Of a DNA stretch of 31,304 nt, positions 7,456 through 22,430 are shown one piece after another. Source of the DNA: Spirogloea muscicola (lineage: Eukaryota > Streptophyta > Zygnematophyceae > Spirogloeales > Spirogloeaceae). The first letter of the stretch is position 1; the number at the start of each line of letters is the position of its first letter. A program made the position numbers and the translations under genes. The notes under the pieces are model-generated. The model did no database searches. It saw nothing but the letters and a program-made list of their open reading frames with translations, and was not told the origin of the DNA. Where the stretch lies: contig WELB01000243.1 of assembly GCA_009602725.1 (NCBI GenBank), forward strand, positions 1-31,304. Direction: 5' to 3'.

Positions 7456-8684
7456 TCACTTCACATCCTTGGAGGATATGCCATACTTCTCTTGCAATTT
7501 TGTCAAATCTTCCTCTTTCTTTTTCTGTAAGTGACAACCATAAGAAACTGCACTCAGTGTTGAACCTTCATCAAACCTTCCCCCCGCGCTCCTAAGGAAG
7601 AGTGGGAGCAGGGGGCAAGAGGCAGCTATCCAAGTCGTCCTGGCGGCCCTGCTGCAGGATGGCTGCTGGAAGCTACATACCTGGTCGACCTTCTTGTTCT
7701 GCTTCGCCTGTTGGTAGTAGAGAACTATGAGGTATCGGTTGGCAACATTAAATCCTGAGAGGTGATCGACCGCGTTCTTAGCATCGTAGATGTCCTCGTA
7801 CACGACAAATGCCGTGCCCCTTGTGTCCTTGCTCGTGCCCCTGCAGGAGCATTGCGGCCAAACATTGCACAAGACAAGCAGTGCAAGTGACGTGAGTGTA
7901 TTATGCTCCTCGCAAGCCCCAATCAAGCCTGGAGACTGTTACCGCAGACAAGCAGTCTTGGCTGGTGCAGGCCAGGAAATAGAGGCACTGGGCCCTGAGC
8001 CTTGACCATAAGCACCGAGACAGAGTCCTAACCTAAACCACCCCAACTCATCCCCACCCCCGCTCTTTCTTCCCCCCCCCACTGTCAGTCCTCCCCGACA
8101 CAGTGGAGGGCATATTCAGGAAGAAGAACAACAGAATACATCGTGACGTAGGGCTACTAGGAGAGCTCACACTCTGATTTGCCGGATGGCCCCATACTTG
8201 CCAAAGATGTCATACATCTCATCGGACGTGATGTTGAAGGGCAGGTTCCTGCATGAGCAAAGTCACGAGGTGAACAATCCGCTAGGGAGGGGACTAGGAT
8301 GTGAGAAGGGCAATTTCCTGCAAAAGTTCAGTCATGGGGGAAGTAGTCTGGTAGAGAAGAGTACTAGGCTGTGGCACATGGCAGGAGGGGGATTGGTGGG
8401 GCTTGGAGCGGGCTTGTTGACGCAACAAGCAGGCTTGCTGACGCAACAGAGTGCCGTAAGGCTGGAGGTTTCGAGCGAAGCGGGGTCAAGGCAGCGCTGC
8501 GGCAACGCTTGACCTGACGTAGATGACGCGGTTGACCTCAGGTGGCAGCCGTGCCTGGCCAAAGCAGAGGAGCGCGGGTGTGAGGCATAGAGCGCGAGGC
8601 AGGGCGTGCGGCGGTAGCGCAAGGCAGCGCAAGGGGCGGCTTGGTTGAGGAACGGCGGCGCACGTTGGAGCGGCGCGAGGACAT
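7456..8684 (-). CDS. SF3B6: Splicing factor 3B subunit 6 (SF3b14/p14), five exons
   Basis: RNA-recognition-motif protein of the U2 snRNP SF3b complex that contacts the branch-point region and SF3B1 in the nucleus. Exons in order: 8684-8664, 8554-8514, 8248-8171, 7840-7681, 7524-7456; introns are GT-AG and phases agree. The product is 122 residues against 125 in human. It reads MSSRRSN, then [33 protein letters not shown] (RNP2 region), [20 protein letters not shown] (RNP1 region and helix 2), [16 protein letters not shown], and a Lys-rich tail ending in [10 protein letters not shown]. The 21-nt first exon was chosen because it supplies a Met in phase, a GTGCGC donor and the expected seven-residue leader; it is the least certain exon. 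The gene converges on the bHLH gene with about 430 bp between stops. Confidence 0.93.
8411..8451. repeat. 21-nt tandem duplication in an SF3B6 intron
   Basis: The unit ggcttgttgacgcaacaagc and a near-identical copy lie head to tail in the second intron of SF3B6. It has no coding meaning and is probably replication slippage. Confidence 0.7.
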
Positions 8685-11459: not shown

Positions 11460-13465
<2,006 letters not shown>

Positions 13466-16172: not shown

Positions 16173-17060
16173 TCAGTGCATCCAGGGCGGAGCAGAGAGC
16201 CGCCTGGAATGGCAACGTGCCGGTCTCCACGTCCGCTGCGGCCTGCTCCAGGAGGCGACCAGGATGAAACGCTGGGCCACCGAGGCCGCAACCTGCGCCC
16301 AGCTCCCCAGGTGTGCAGCCCGGCAGGCACGAGCCAGCGGACGGCAGCCCAGACCCTCTCGGCTCACATGCAGGGAGGCCTGGTGAGCTGCAGCCGGCGT
16401 CTCCAGGAAGGCCGGGTGTCGGATCAGGGCCGCTGTGCTGGCCAGGATACCTGCATCAAAGGTTGCATAGGCGGCCTGCGCCGCCGGTGTGGGGGGGAGG
16501 GCTCGAGCCAGGTACAGGGGACGTTGGGCAATGCTGCGCGTCAGCATTGCGAGCGCAAGCTGCATATCGTGCAGCTCCGGGAGGCGGGCCGCCGGCTTGA
16601 GGTGCTCCTGCAGCTTGCCGCGCAGCTGCTCATCCACGAAGGCAGGTGAGCCCAGATGGAACTCCGAGGACTGTGAGGCCCCCGGCTGGTGTCTGACAGC
16701 CGGAGGGCAGGCGGAGGAGGGCTGGCAAGCCCTGTGGGGACCAAGCGCTACACTCCGACGCTCGGATGTCCAGGCTGATGTCCTTCAGCCGCTCCTCGAG
16801 GGTGGCGAAGGCAGCCAGGACCTCGTCTGGTTGCCCGACCAGGGTGGTGTCGTCCGCATACGTGGGCATGAGGACGCCCGGGTGAGCAGCTGCCGTGGCC
16901 TTCAGGGCGCGGTCGTGGGCCAGCGCGTAGAAAAACCCCGCCAGCGGGTCCCCCTGACGCGTGCCCGTGGAAGACTGGAGGACCTCCACCCCTCTGGATC
17001 AATGCCGCCATAGGAGATCACTGGGCTGGCGTAGCTAAGGGCGCCCTGTCTGCCTAGCCT
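16173..17060 (-). pseudogene. Reverse transcriptase fragment of LINE copy I
   Basis: Shows SYGGIDPEG, then after a one-base frameshift in a G run SSTGTRQGDPLAGFFYALA (RT block with the QGDP motif) and MPTYADDTTLVG (the YADD catalytic box). After a second frameshift near 16660 it continues GSPAFVDEQL and a thumb-like region with SREGLGCRPLARA and AAHLGSWAQVAASVAQRFI. The thumb lines up with the same segment of copy II at 24.4-24.7 kb. Catalytic motifs remain but the frame does not. Confidence 0.85.
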
Positions 17061-17109: not shown

Positions 17110-17312
17110 CTTCAGTTTGGCCCCTTCGAACCTTGTCAATTCTTTTCGGGCTGGCTTCTCACAGCCCTTGCCCCCTTTGGGAGAGCCACTTCTTCAGGCC
17201 CCGCAGTCGCTGCTTAGCTCGTAGTTTGGCCCCTTCGAACCTTGTCAATTCTTTTCGGGCTGGCTTCTCACAGCCCTTGCCCCCATTGGGAGAGCCACTT
17301 CTTCTTTGCCGC
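17110..17312 (+). repeat. Two tandem hairpin-family copies
   Basis: Copies at 17110-17196 and 17223-17312 are almost identical: tttggccccttcgaaccttg, tcaattcttttc, hairpin gggctggcttctcacagccc, ttgccccc, ttgggagagccacttcttc. The 27-nt joint between them (aggccccgcagtcgctgctt...) also precedes the copy at 26.5 kb. Confidence 0.9.
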
Positions 17313-18028
17313 CGATTGTTTGACATCAGCAGCCGCATTCCAGTCCTCCACCCCAGCTCCCGTGGAAGCTTGCCCGGGCCCACCCAGACCCCCTCGCTCG
17401 GACATCAGTTCGCGACCTCCATGTGCTGACTCGAGGTTACTGAGCAGGTCAGCTGAGCAGCAGGTGATGTACATCTGTCCATGTGCTTGCCTTTGTACTT
17501 GGCCGCCCAGGCCCTCCACCACTCGATACGCACTCCATCTCCTAACCAGAGGTTACTAGATGATTATCATACCGGGAAAGCTTTGGGAAAGCGCTCTGTG
17601 GCCCCTTCGGACCTTGTCAATCTTTTTCAGGCTGGCTGTTCACAGCCCTTGCCCCCTTTTCGGAGAGCCACTTTCGCTGCTCGCCCTGAAGCCAGGCCCA
17701 TCCAATATAGGGGGACGGCTGTGATAAGCAAGGTAAGCTTTTCCAAACAGGGCGAGGGCTGTGAGGCGCGCGACGAAATGAAAAGGGTGGCCGTTTTGAG
17801 CCAGTACATTGTTCAAGCTGGAAGAGTGAGTTGTGAACGGCCAGCCCAAAGAACAACGGACACGGTCCGTCGGGGCCAGAAGCGCCACACAGCCACGCAA
17901 GCGGCTACTACAATTTAAGTGCTCGATAGTGCCCGCTAAGTGAGGGCTCGCTAGGTTCCTGTGCTAGGTGTCTAGTGCTCGCTGGGTTCCTATGGCTTGG
18001 CTTGAGGAGCAGCAAGAGAGCTCAGTCA
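17313..18028. repeat. Degenerate repeat region
   Basis: LINE-tail-like ends (gctgactcgaggttactgag near 17425; aaccagaggttactag near 17545), a hairpin copy at about 17598-17680, and a diverged LINE 3' terminus at 17760-17836. From about 17900 to 18028, the 3' flank of the NamZ-like gene, I see nothing recognisable. Confidence 0.5.
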
Positions 18029-21000
18029 TCAATACAAGAGATGCCGGGCTCGAGTGGCTCGGAACCAGATCAGATCGGCCTCCCACAGGGCCATGATCTC
18101 GTCAAGACAGCTCCCATTGCTGATCCCTTGTCTCAGAGAGCTGCATCCAGCTAGATTGTCAAGCCAGTAACCCTCTCTCTCAGAACCCCGCCATGCAAAC
18201 TTGTCGGGATACAGCTCTTTCAGGGAAACCATGATGGACAGTGCAACTTGAAGCGGATTGAAAAGGTCAATGTCTCCAATATGTACCTGGACACTTCAGG
18301 ACGGTAGTGAGACTGCTGTAACATCTCTTGAAGAACAACGGATTTATGCAACTTGTATCATCGAAGACACTGGGGACCCAGTGAGTACCAGATACTGACC
18401 CGTGTACACCTCTTCTTCCTCCTACTACCTTCTGCTACCAGTGACGCCTGACCACGTACTTTACTCGTACTCCCCAGAATGTCCTACTCTTACAATGGTC
18501 ACTGCAACGACGATGCATGGCAATTCAGGGCGGTTTTGCAAGTGGTTGCAGACCTGTACACCTGTGATACTCGATCCAGCATACTTGTTGAACCAGGGGG
18601 TAAATGTCACTTCTCGAAACTTAGCTCCAGGGCAGTGCTTTTTCGACAGACAATCAATGAGGAGGTCATTAATGTACGGGGCACCGACCTGACCAGCAGA
18701 GAGCAGCCGTGTAAGGCATAGAGATCGTATCACTGTTGGTGACTGTCAGTCTGCTTGATGACAATCAGGTCAAGTATTGATCCAATGGACTAGCATGTGT
18801 TAGGGTCTGGCAGGCAACATAAGAACGTCGCATTCCATAACCCCGTCGTAAGTGGAAACATCACTAGTCTACAAATGGTGTCTGTCTGTGCTTCGCGCAT
18901 CTGCGTAATCAGTCGAGCACTAAAACAAGATGTAGCATACACGCATGACTAAGCTGCGCACCAGCTCAAATGGTAGAGTTGTCCCACGAGCTTCGGAGCA
19001 ATTTGTGCCCTACGGAATGAGAATGTGATGCATGTGTTAGGGTGGACACAACTCTGCACACACATGCAATACCTCAGATGCACATTGCTCTCACAGCACC
19101 ACACAGGTTGAGCAAGGGACAGCGGAAGGAGAGAAGTGAGCAACACGAGCAGTCAGTATCACACCACAGTGGTGCACACCTCAAAGAGGGCCATGCCTGG
19201 GTATACAAGTGCTGTAGTGGGAGTTGGCATGTTTGGTGATGGTGCGACCCATAGAAGGCCCGTATCGACAAATTTCATTCCTCTATTCCAGCCCTCCATC
19301 CTTGCAACCTCAAGGTGTACCTGCTGCCTCACTACAGCCGCTGCAACTTACTGACAAAGTCAGACCGCTGACCTGAAAGACGTTGGACGGAGACACAGAG
19401 TGATGCAGGTTGCACACACACAAGGTGGTCCTTATTCATCAACAATGACTACAAGTGAGGGATCACCAAGTTTTCTGACCACCAACAGCAAACTTGCACA
19501 TACCCTTCTGCCTGCTTCCTCGGCAACAAAGTCATCATTGAACAGTTGTGCTAGTTCACCAATTGTCATGCCGTGCTGGAGCGCAATCGGCTGCAGCACA
19601 GTGCCAAGCTTGAATGATATCCCCAATAAATTGCGACTAATTTATCACAAACAAAAAGCTTGCTCAGAGGATTGAAGACTCTCATCAGCAGCTGCGACAA
19701 AGCTTGGATCTGAAGTGCTTGACCTGCACCTTCCGTCCGACGAAGGATGCGTGAGGTGGCTGGAGGACAGGCCCATCAACAACGGTACCCCCCATTGGAT
19801 TTGGACGGTCCGCGACCACCACCCTTATTGGCGTCTTTACCATTGCTGCAGCTACCATACAGTCGTACATTGTCCAGATGTATGTGTAGAACCTAACCTG
19901 GGAACAAGCCCGGTCATATCAGAAGCTGTATGAGCTTCAGAGCACCATGTGATTGATTTGAGCCACCATGGGCTGACAAGACCACCATTGAACACAATGA
20001 AATACTGTTTCTCGAAGTCTCAGGTTGCTGCCAGCTTATACTGGAAGGTAGAAGGTTACAACGCAGCTCACTCCTACATCCTGCATGTCAATGAGTAGGA
20101 CGTCGATGCCAGCTTTCTCCAAGACCGCAACCAAAGCACGGCCAGACTGTCATGAACAACAAAAGGCGCAAGGGGTTGTTAGGATGTTGGCAATGAAGTC
20201 ATGCACAAGTCCTGACGCGCAGCTGCAGCGCGAGAGCCTGACATGACCTGTCACTAGGCAGTGCTGCTTCAGCACTTGGTAGCCAAGGCAGCACCTTCTT
20301 GTAAATGTTGAAAACAGGTACACCTGTCCGTCCGTCAATTGCATCCTCTTCCGAAGCTCCTGCCTGGAGCAAGCGCACGCAATGTGGTGAGAATGCCTGG
20401 ACACTTGACTTATCTTGGTGCAGGTACCACCTTGTACCTGCATGTGCAGAGCATCATCGTGCTCCTCTTGCGGAATGTTGTTCTGCGCTCTACCAAGGTT
20501 GACAGCACCTGCGAGGGCCGGAGGGGGAAGGAGAAGTGGGGCGAGGGGGAGGGGGTTGGGATAGAGTGGGTGTTTTTGGGGGTTGGTCGGTGGAGGGCAG
20601 TGTGGGGCGGCGTACTTGTGCCTTCTTGTGCCCTCCGGTGGAAGGGCGGCTCCCAGGGAGTTAAACACACAGCACAGCCAGAAATTTATGGGCTGGCTGA
20701 CGGACTGCCGGCCCTTCACCATCATGGTCTGACGAATAGGCCAATTGGGCGACCTCGAAAGTGTCGAGGTGCTGACAAGGACATGTGCACACCTAAAATA
20801 GGATGAAAAGTGACTCCTGTGTGCTAGAGTTGCTGCGGGCGATGGCCAGGTCACCTGCATCTGCCCGCGAAACCCGTGCTCCGGCCCGAAGATAGCCACG
20901 AGATTGATGTCCTTGTCTTCGTGGAGCTTGTCGACCTGCAATGGTGGGATGCGGAGATAGCTATATCAGGCCAGTTACAGAGGGGTAATCACAAGTCGGC

Positions 21001-21329
21001 AGCATGCAGCCCACGTAGAGGAGCAAAGATGGCAGGGAATGGTCGACGAGGCACGGTGGTGGTGGAATGCAAGCCGCCGTCAAGTGTCACGGAAGCGGAG
21101 GCAGCTGTGCCCAGCGCACGCTCGCCTCGCCAGAGGAGCGGGGGGGAGGGTCGCTCACCACGTGCACCAAGGAGGCAAGGACGGCAGTGTGGTTGGCCAC
21201 CACGCCCAGCTGCAGCCGCAGGGAGGTGCCGGAGGGCGGCGGCGTGGCGGCGGTCAGCTGGCGCGCAGGCAGCAGGCGCCGCGGGGGGGTGAGTGCCAAG
21301 GGCGGGGGCNGGGCGGGCGCCTGGCCCAT
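18029..21329 (-). CDS. NamZ-like exo-beta-N-acetylmuramidase (DUF1343, GH171), ten exons
   Basis: Homologue of bacterial NamZ, which removes terminal MurNAc from peptidoglycan fragments. Exons: 21329-21159, 20935-20855, 20363-20295, 20146-20072, 19897-19730, 19590-19504, 19320-19180, 19009-18962, 18688-18554, 18286-18029; all GT-AG, all phase 0, about 410 residues, the family's usual size. Motifs in order: LGVVANHTAV; VAIFGPEHGFRG (family Glu-His block); DGRTGVPVFNIY; VLLIDMQDVG joined to VRFYTYIWTMYDCM; VVADRPNPMGG; SFVGRK joined to PIALQHGMTIGELAQLFN; MEGWNRGM; WVAPSPNMPTPTTALVYPG; GTNCSEARGTTLPFEL; VGAPYINDLL; FTPWFNKYAG; LYPDKFAWRG; and the end RARHLLY. The N-terminus (Met 21329 chosen, one residue lost to the N at 21310) is Pro/Ala/Arg-rich with no clear signal peptide, so its location is open. 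The gene is flanked by LINE debris. The substrate in an alga is unknown: plastid or bacterial wall material is an inference. Confidence 0.9.
20518..20600 (+). other. G-rich tract in an NamZ intron
   Basis: Many G runs of three to five (ggaggggg, ggggcgaggg, gtttttgggggttgg) on the plus strand, in the second intron of the NamZ-like gene. It could form a G-quadruplex. It is not coding. Confidence 0.5.
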
Positions 21330-21516
21330 GGCGCGCCCGCCGGGCTCGGCCTCCTGCTCCTGCCCTTCACTGCCGCAGTCGTCGTCTCCTGCCCCCTCCC
21401 ACAGCATCCGGCGGCTGCTGGTGGGGCACTGGAGCGGCTGATGGTGGTGACCGCCGGCCACTCCGCCGCCCCGGGCCCTCCGCGTCTCCTTGCTCACCCC
21501 TGGGTCCTAAGAGAGA

Positions 21517-21706
21517 GGCGCGCGGGGCGCATGAAATGAAAAGGGAGGCCAATTCAAGCCAATACACAATTCAAGCAGAGGCGAGTGCAAACTAAACAAG
21601 GCTACATAATATAGAGACCTAAACTAAGGTGCCTAAGGTGACATCAGTACCCACGGGAGAGCACAAACAAATCGGACAAGCTAACTTGGGGAAAACTTGG
21701 GGGGTA
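21517..21706 (-). repeat. LINE 3' untranslated region, type B (minus), copy 1
   Basis: Begins gaggcgcgcggggcgcatga, continues gggaggccaattcaagccaa, gcagaggcgagtgcaaacta and ends near aagctaacttgggg. Nearly identical to 23211-23395. It sits just upstream of the NamZ-like first exon, so it bounds that gene's promoter region. Confidence 0.9.
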
Positions 21707-21729
21707 CTAAACGTCACACTGTTACCATG

Positions 21730-21925
21730 GCTCTTGTCAATCCTTTTCGGGCTGGCTTATCACAGCCCTTGCCCTCATTGGGAGAGCCACTTCTTCTTCT
21801 ACCACAGCCACTTCAGCATAGGGCCTTTGGTTTGTGTAGCTATGGTTTGCACTAGTTTCTGCCTGAACAATGCATTGGCTTGAATTGGCCTCCGTTTCAT
21901 TTCGTGCGCACCGCGCGCCGTGTCT
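21730..21925 (+). repeat. Hairpin repeat plus inverted LINE 3' terminus
   Basis: 21730-21800 is a hairpin copy (gggctggcttatcacagccc). 21841-21925 is a type-B LINE 3' end on the plus strand (cattggcttgaattggcctc, gtgcgcaccgcgcgcc), inverted relative to 21517-21706. Confidence 0.75.
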
Positions 21926-22189: not shown

Positions 22190-22430
22190 GCTCGGCTCTT
22201 TGGACATTGTCCATTCTTTCTGGGCTCGCCTTTCCCAGCCACCTACTTACATTGGGCGAGCTACTTCTTAATATCGAAAGAGTGGCTGTAAAAGCCAGCC
22301 AGGTGCATACAGAAGAAGCTCGCCCAATCAAAGAAGGTGGCTGGGAAAGAAGTGGCTCTCCCATTGGGGACAAGGGCTGTGAAAAGCCAGGCCGAAAAGA
22401 ATTGACAAAGGTTTGAAGGGGCCACAATGA
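22190..22430. repeat. Two hairpin-family copies in inverted orientation
   Basis: A plus copy at 22190-22272 (ggctcgcctttcccagccac, attgggcgagctacttctt) faces reverse-oriented copies at about 22310-22425 (gaagaagctcgcccaatcaa, gaaggtggctggg, then gaagtggctctcccattggg). The pair could fold into a long imperfect stem. Confidence 0.75.

Follow-up and report, generated by a model that had tools for sequence, protein, structure and literature searches.

A NamZ-family gene with nine predicted introns in Spirogloea muscicola: a putative bacterial acquisition and candidate enzyme of plastid-wall turnover

In Bacillus subtilis, NamZ releases N-acetylmuramic acid (MurNAc) and takes part in cell-wall recycling. 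What might a gene of this family, split into ten exons, do in the genome of a streptophyte alga, and from where might it have come? The window, that is, the whole stretch of 31,304 nucleotides analysed here, carries this gene on its minus strand. The original prediction had read it as a eukaryotic gene for a DUF1343/NamZ protein of bacterial origin, working perhaps on remnants of plastid peptidoglycan or on ingested or epiphytic bacteria.

The gene model consists of ten minus-strand exons between positions 18029 and 21407. Joined conceptually, they encode 436 residues (437 codons with the stop) without an internal stop. In the final splice model all nine introns begin with GT and end with AG, all lie in phase 0, and their lengths range from 139 to 491 bases; eight of the nine contain a stop in the frame of the upstream exon, intron 2 being the exception. 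When the product is aligned pairwise with four proteins from bacteria (L021, L022, L025, and L049), none of the nine junctions coincides with a gap. The exon count and the in-phase joining given in the original prediction were correct, and the five sequence blocks that it had named (GPEHGFRG, DRPNPMGG, HGMTIGEL, PSPNMPT, and RARHLLY) are all present in the minus-strand conceptual splice product.

Searching all six frames of the raw genome with PF07075 found two exons unaided: exon 5 (19730-19897; VRFYTY through ADRPNPMGG to SFVGRK) at 9.4e-15 and exon 7 (19180-19320; VHLEV through PSPNMPT to MALFE) at 3.0e-6. A refined protein core, searched against the genome, gave nine matching stretches at one locus only. 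These matches, together with the pairwise alignments, place exon 2 (20855-20935; VDKLH to GPEHGFRGQMQ), exon 4 (20072-20146; SGRALV to DMQDVG), and exon 6 (19504-19590; PIALQHGMTIGEL to EAGRR); genome matches also cover exon 9 (18554-18688; VGAPYI to SITGVQ), at about which the NamZ_C domain starts, and exon 10 (18029-18286; VHIGD to RARHLLY and the stop). Exon 3 (20295-20363; AGASEED to FNIYKK) was placed through the pairwise alignments. Exon 8 (18962-19009; GTNCSEARGTTLPFEL) has 16 codons only and gave no match in the raw-genome search, including that with the refined core. Exon 1 (21159-21407) ends in LASLVHV, has a GC content of 0.76, and includes one ambiguous base (N, at about 21310).

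Two of the 18 splice sites, the donor of exon 3 (AAG/GTGCTG) and the acceptor of exon 6 (GCAG/CCG), were picked with homology in view, and the 3' end of exon 3 and the 5' end of exon 6 are thus set by homology. Relative to the bacterial proteins, a first splice model had 26 extra residues where exon 3 ends and six where exon 6 starts; it was dropped because both inserts disappear when neighbouring in-phase sites are used, and as it was this shift that removed both extra stretches, the two sites count as homology-guided. The first model or its core was used for the Pfam scan, the PDB search, the single-protein viral scan, and the scans of plasmid and phage records. The refined core was used for the genome re-search, the NCBIfam scan, the scan for relatives, the count of invariant residues, the pairwise alignments, and all trees. 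The host's class A penicillin-binding protein (PBP) served as a control for the introns: every one of its three copies contains a pair of introns that begin with GT, end with AG, and lie in phase 0 at shared sites. The uniformity of phase in the NamZ introns (nine of nine) went beyond our expectation. Five of the nine downstream exons open with GT, and in four of these five the junction reads G/GT. We regard the joined exons as a predicted spliced gene whose structure was set by homology, and infer that it is spliced accordingly in vivo.

Both NamZ domains score far above their Pfam cut-offs in the first-model protein, which bears out the family assignment of the original prediction. NamZ_N matches in two stretches (3e-66; 223.1 bits against a cut-off of 26.9), and NamZ_C is complete (positions 1-152 of 152; 2.7e-44; 152 bits against a cut-off of 25). 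In the PDB, the first-model core matches 4k05 (1.8e-60) and 4jja (9.7e-44), both of which their depositors labelled as hypothetical proteins. The NCBIfam scan of the refined core assigned no family, and the assignment is that of Pfam. The alga keeps 49 of the 50 columns that are invariant among 80 bacterial relatives, 75 of the 77 columns conserved at the 97% level, and 104 of the 117 at the 90% level. The sole change at an invariant position, G to A, lies in exon 8 and turns SEGRGTT into SEARGTT. Going by conservation, the Glu in GPEHG may be catalytic. Overall, the protein is only 52-54% identical to four of its best relatives (191/365 to 197/365); since the conserved columns are kept despite this divergence, the single gene copy appears to be under purifying selection and not to be a pseudogene.

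The gene is a new member of the known NamZ (GH171) family in an unusual host. It shares with the Bacillus subtilis type (PF07075 and PF20732, with 4k05 and 4jja as solved relatives) both domains and nearly all invariant residues. It differs from bacterial NamZ in being nuclear, eukaryotic, and interrupted by nine introns, in the residue change in exon 8, and in an unclear N-terminus. The bacterial N-terminal stretch with the motif T-G-x-E-V-L has no clear counterpart here, and the 5' end of the model is uncertain. So is the translation start, with in-frame ATGs at 21329, the one chosen in the original prediction, and upstream at 21407. From the ATG at 21329 to the conserved LQLGVV there are 38 residues with four Arg, no Asp or Glu, and abundant Pro, Ala, Leu, and Thr, a composition, and by composition only, compatible with an organelle transit peptide. 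With a start at 21407 instead, the first 26 residues include five Glu and three Asp, unlike a transit peptide. The GC-rich 5' sequence of exon 1 would by itself yield Pro, Ala, and Arg.

What such an enzyme might act on depends on the peptidoglycan of the host. We searched the assembly (153 Mb in 471 contigs) for MurD, MurE, MurF, MraY, MurG, and class A PBP. PF08245 had 15 exon matches on eight contigs. In NCBIfam, MurF came first or second for two exons of contig C39, MurD came first for C14 and C38, and MurE for C149, all of these matches being below whole-protein cut-offs, as is inevitable for single exons. Contigs C8, C42, and C12 were assigned through near-identical peptides and C435 by model positions only. 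The MraY model matched eight exons, which lie on C185 and C261; none of them exceeded the cut-off, and two of the C261 exons matched mraY again in NCBIfam. Nine transglycosylase matches lie on three contigs; the one transpeptidase match is on C107. MurE and MraY were found on two contigs each, and exons of MurD (C12, C14, and C38), MurF (C8, C39, and C42), and class A PBP (C3, C56, and C107) on three contigs each, as opposed to one locus for NamZ. Three contigs each is as expected for the triplicated genome of Spirogloea muscicola, which is mentioned in an excerpt of PMC7994812.

MurG had no match in the genome profile search, and the same model matches in all 14 control genomes; AnmK and Amidase_3 were likewise without a match. 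A search of this kind can overlook genes split into exons, and these negatives are to be read accordingly. The MurQ model had five matches, none over the cut-off. One of these, on contig C70, was considered as a MurNAc salvage gene and rejected, its C-terminal part being instead like glucokinase regulatory protein (GKRP), which is best known from animals. The frame on C70 (L123 1147-1923) corresponds to the C-terminal lid of that protein (GKRP-like_C, 1.1e-21; GKRP in the PDB, 3.2e-17), and the matches on C79 and C1 fall on the same positions of the MurQ model. With AnmK and Amidase_3 unmatched in the profile search and the followed-up MurQ match GKRP-like, no route for MurNAc salvage is visible.

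Because exons of MurD, MurE, MurF, MraY, and class A PBP are present, the host probably makes plastid peptidoglycan. Plastid peptidoglycan is described for streptophyte algae and bryophytes in the excerpted text of PMC10784329. The original prediction had spoken of "remnants": peptidoglycan in the host is upheld, but several synthesis genes are more than a remnant.

We propose, giving the reading an even chance, that the gene encodes an active exo-muramidase of the NamZ type that was acquired from bacteria and acts most likely on plastid peptidoglycan. An alga of the zygnematophyte type would have acquired a gene for a NamZ (GH171) exo-beta-N-acetylmuramidase from a bacterium, and the gene would then have filled with spliceosomal introns and been retained under purifying selection. 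Its product would remove terminal MurNAc from the glycan ends of peptidoglycan, the likeliest substrate being the thin peptidoglycan layer of the host plastid during remodelling or division. As the host has peptidoglycan synthesis genes of its own, trimming of the plastid wall is the economical reading; catalysis, plastid location, and a role in remodelling are what homology and host context would predict. A precedent is DipM, whose hydrolysis of peptidoglycan has, according to an excerpt of PMC4015805, a part in the division of chloroplasts in both a glaucophyte and a moss. Against the plastid reading stand the acidic N-terminus that a start at 21407 would give, the missing salvage partner and MurG match in our searches, and the single NamZ locus.

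Alternatively, an active NamZ might be secreted or vacuolar and work on the peptidoglycan of other bacteria, in feeding or in defence within the surrounding film. We consider this unlikely, although it is the most serious of the competing explanations. Relatives of the gene occur in Streptomyces, Nonomuraea, and Kribbella, which are typical soil bacteria. Gene transfer from soil bacteria to this algal group is reported in excerpts of PMC7902510, PMC12448838, and PMC11131428, and bacteria-killing peptidoglycan hydrolases of archaea in an excerpt of PMC12352652. However, the N-terminus from the ATG at 21329 has by eye no evident hydrophobic core of a signal peptide. In addition, an exo-acting enzyme, confined to free MurNAc ends, makes a poor killer, which speaks against action on outside bacteria.

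A further step down in probability, and in our view quite improbable, is that the fold was kept while the substrate changed to another hexosamine conjugate, or that the protein is a cytosolic enzyme with an unrelated role. The long branch of the algal sequence (see below), the unclear N-terminal stretch, and the replacement of the invariant Gly in SEGRGTT would fit such a change, but the retention of every other invariant column does not.

The second part of the question concerns the source of the gene. At least 583 relatives were confirmed in the genome collection; the best 80 of these, which were kept, come from Actinomycetota (47), Bacillota (32), and Thermomicrobiota (1). We calculated a quick tree with 92 rows and a careful tree with 44 of these 92, thinned by hand (L014, L016, L019, and L101 are among those dropped). 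The careful tree places the alga, with support of 100/98, in a set of 31 rows that also comprises 27 Actinomycetota, the one sequence from Thermomicrobiota, and two actinomycete sequences from plasmid records. The corresponding set in the quick tree has 52 rows and an SH-aLRT support of 99. Within the careful tree the pairing of the alga with the Thermomicrobiales sequence reaches 86/72 only. A topology that joins the alga to the eight Bacillota of this tree was rejected (p-AU 0.0012), whereas one in which it branches off as sister to all 30 bacterial sequences of the set was not (p-AU 0.355). The algal branch is long (1.31 in the careful tree), and for this reason we name no exact donor.

Mobile elements were searched as well. 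The single-protein scan of viral contigs found no relative; in the pattern-based alignment scan 36 stretches matched, of which one was a relative, at 32%, and no close viral carrier was found among the viral contigs scanned in this way. Matches were found in 29 plasmid and six phage records, the best at 45%. The trees, in which the alga is the one eukaryote, agree with the bacterial origin in the original prediction, with Actinomycetota and Thermomicrobiota as the nearest relatives found and union with Bacillota rejected. They suggest that the bacterium from which the alga acquired NamZ belonged to the NamZ branch of Actinomycetota and Thermomicrobiota or stood close to it.

NamZ might instead have been inherited from the cyanobacterial ancestor of the plastid, given that text excerpted from PMC10784329 counts the peptidoglycan layer of plastids among cyanobacterial traits. 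We give this very little credence: there are no cyanobacteria among the best 80 of the at least 583 relatives, PF07075 has matches in three of 14 control genomes with Synechococcus elongatus not among them, and Anabaena is stated in a passage of PMC10936207 to have no orthologue of NamZ or NagZ. By the same treatment of the layer as a cyanobacterial trait, the host's other wall genes may be cyanobacterial. A more specific picture we offer tentatively, and think possible without expecting it: in this streptophyte alga, a plastid wall built by old plastid-wall enzymes would be trimmed by an exo-muramidase that was captured later and is not of cyanobacterial descent.

The contig itself is the alga's own. 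Ten frames of the window besides NamZ were scanned, and four matched a Pfam family (one just under the cut-off): a porphobilinogen deaminase (11699-12322; 8.3e-47), an M17 aminopeptidase (985-1380; 4.3e-30), an RRM protein (7456-7938), which we take to resemble SF3B6, and, near the repeats, a reverse-transcriptase-like frame (16630-16998; RVT_1 at 1.6e-6, the match just under the cut-off). An 82-nt interspersed repeat is present twice on the plus strand at 17114-17304, beyond the 3' end of the gene; with diverged copies at 17595-17676 and 21715-21796 the repeat thus flanks the gene on both sides. A 62-nt part of it also occurs inverted (the repeat coordinates include 22347-22408). Beyond the 5' end of the gene, on the plus strand at 21546-21566, there is a 21-base repeat motif that recurs exactly in an rDNA stretch of the assembly (L102); the other three loci that match it overlap the window itself. 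Because this motif is identical in an rDNA contig of the assembly, we assign the NamZ contig to the genome of the alga.

The universal SSU rRNA motif occurs at three places in the genome, and Rfam identifies the two that were read as SSU rRNA of eukaryotes. One hallmark of Zygnematophyceae, the algae most closely related to land plants, is a group I intron towards the 3' end of this gene. One of the two copies (region L103 930-1263) has such an intron (RF00028, E 5.5e-9), with a score of 40.9 bits that is below the curated gathering score of 50, and the V9 region of the host SSU rRNA looks, we presume, streptophyte. In the other copy (region L102 1355-3028) the SSU match is by eye interrupted by foreign sequence, which in part carries the repeat motif of the window (L102 2201-2221). 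Together with the exons for peptidoglycan synthesis, the SSU rRNA with its intron agrees with the algal host of the original prediction. Bacterial contamination or a chimeric assembly, which a bacterial-type protein at a single locus could suggest, has next to no probability in view of the nine introns within the coding region (a refutation unless the exon model is wrong), the porphobilinogen deaminase and M17 aminopeptidase frames in the same window, and the repeat shared with the rDNA contig; on introns and repeat, the earlier reading as a eukaryotic gene stands.

NamZ and DipM belong to different families and cut different bonds. The role proposed for the algal NamZ, cutting plastid peptidoglycan, is like that of DipM, the plastid hydrolase of moss and glaucophyte (PMC4015805, excerpt); unlike DipM, the algal NamZ apparently came from bacteria other than cyanobacteria. 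It also resembles the transfers of GRAS and PYL, bacterial genes in streptophyte algae for which a soil-bacterial source is proposed in an excerpt of PMC12448838, but it is a cell-wall enzyme, as opposed to a regulator or a receptor. Among the open-access papers listed for NamZ, DUF1343, PF07075, and GH171, none deals, by its title and the beginning of its abstract, with a plant or algal NamZ; eukaryotic members that are annotated but undiscussed may well exist. In the excerpts of two plant papers, PMC9434261 and PMC12681378, the word "hydrolase" occurs solely within the citation of one moss study, and turnover of plastid peptidoglycan in green plants looks little studied. Against this background, an alga that has genes for peptidoglycan synthesis together with a captured exo-muramidase, its core intact, would provide a defined candidate enzyme for turnover of the plastid wall.
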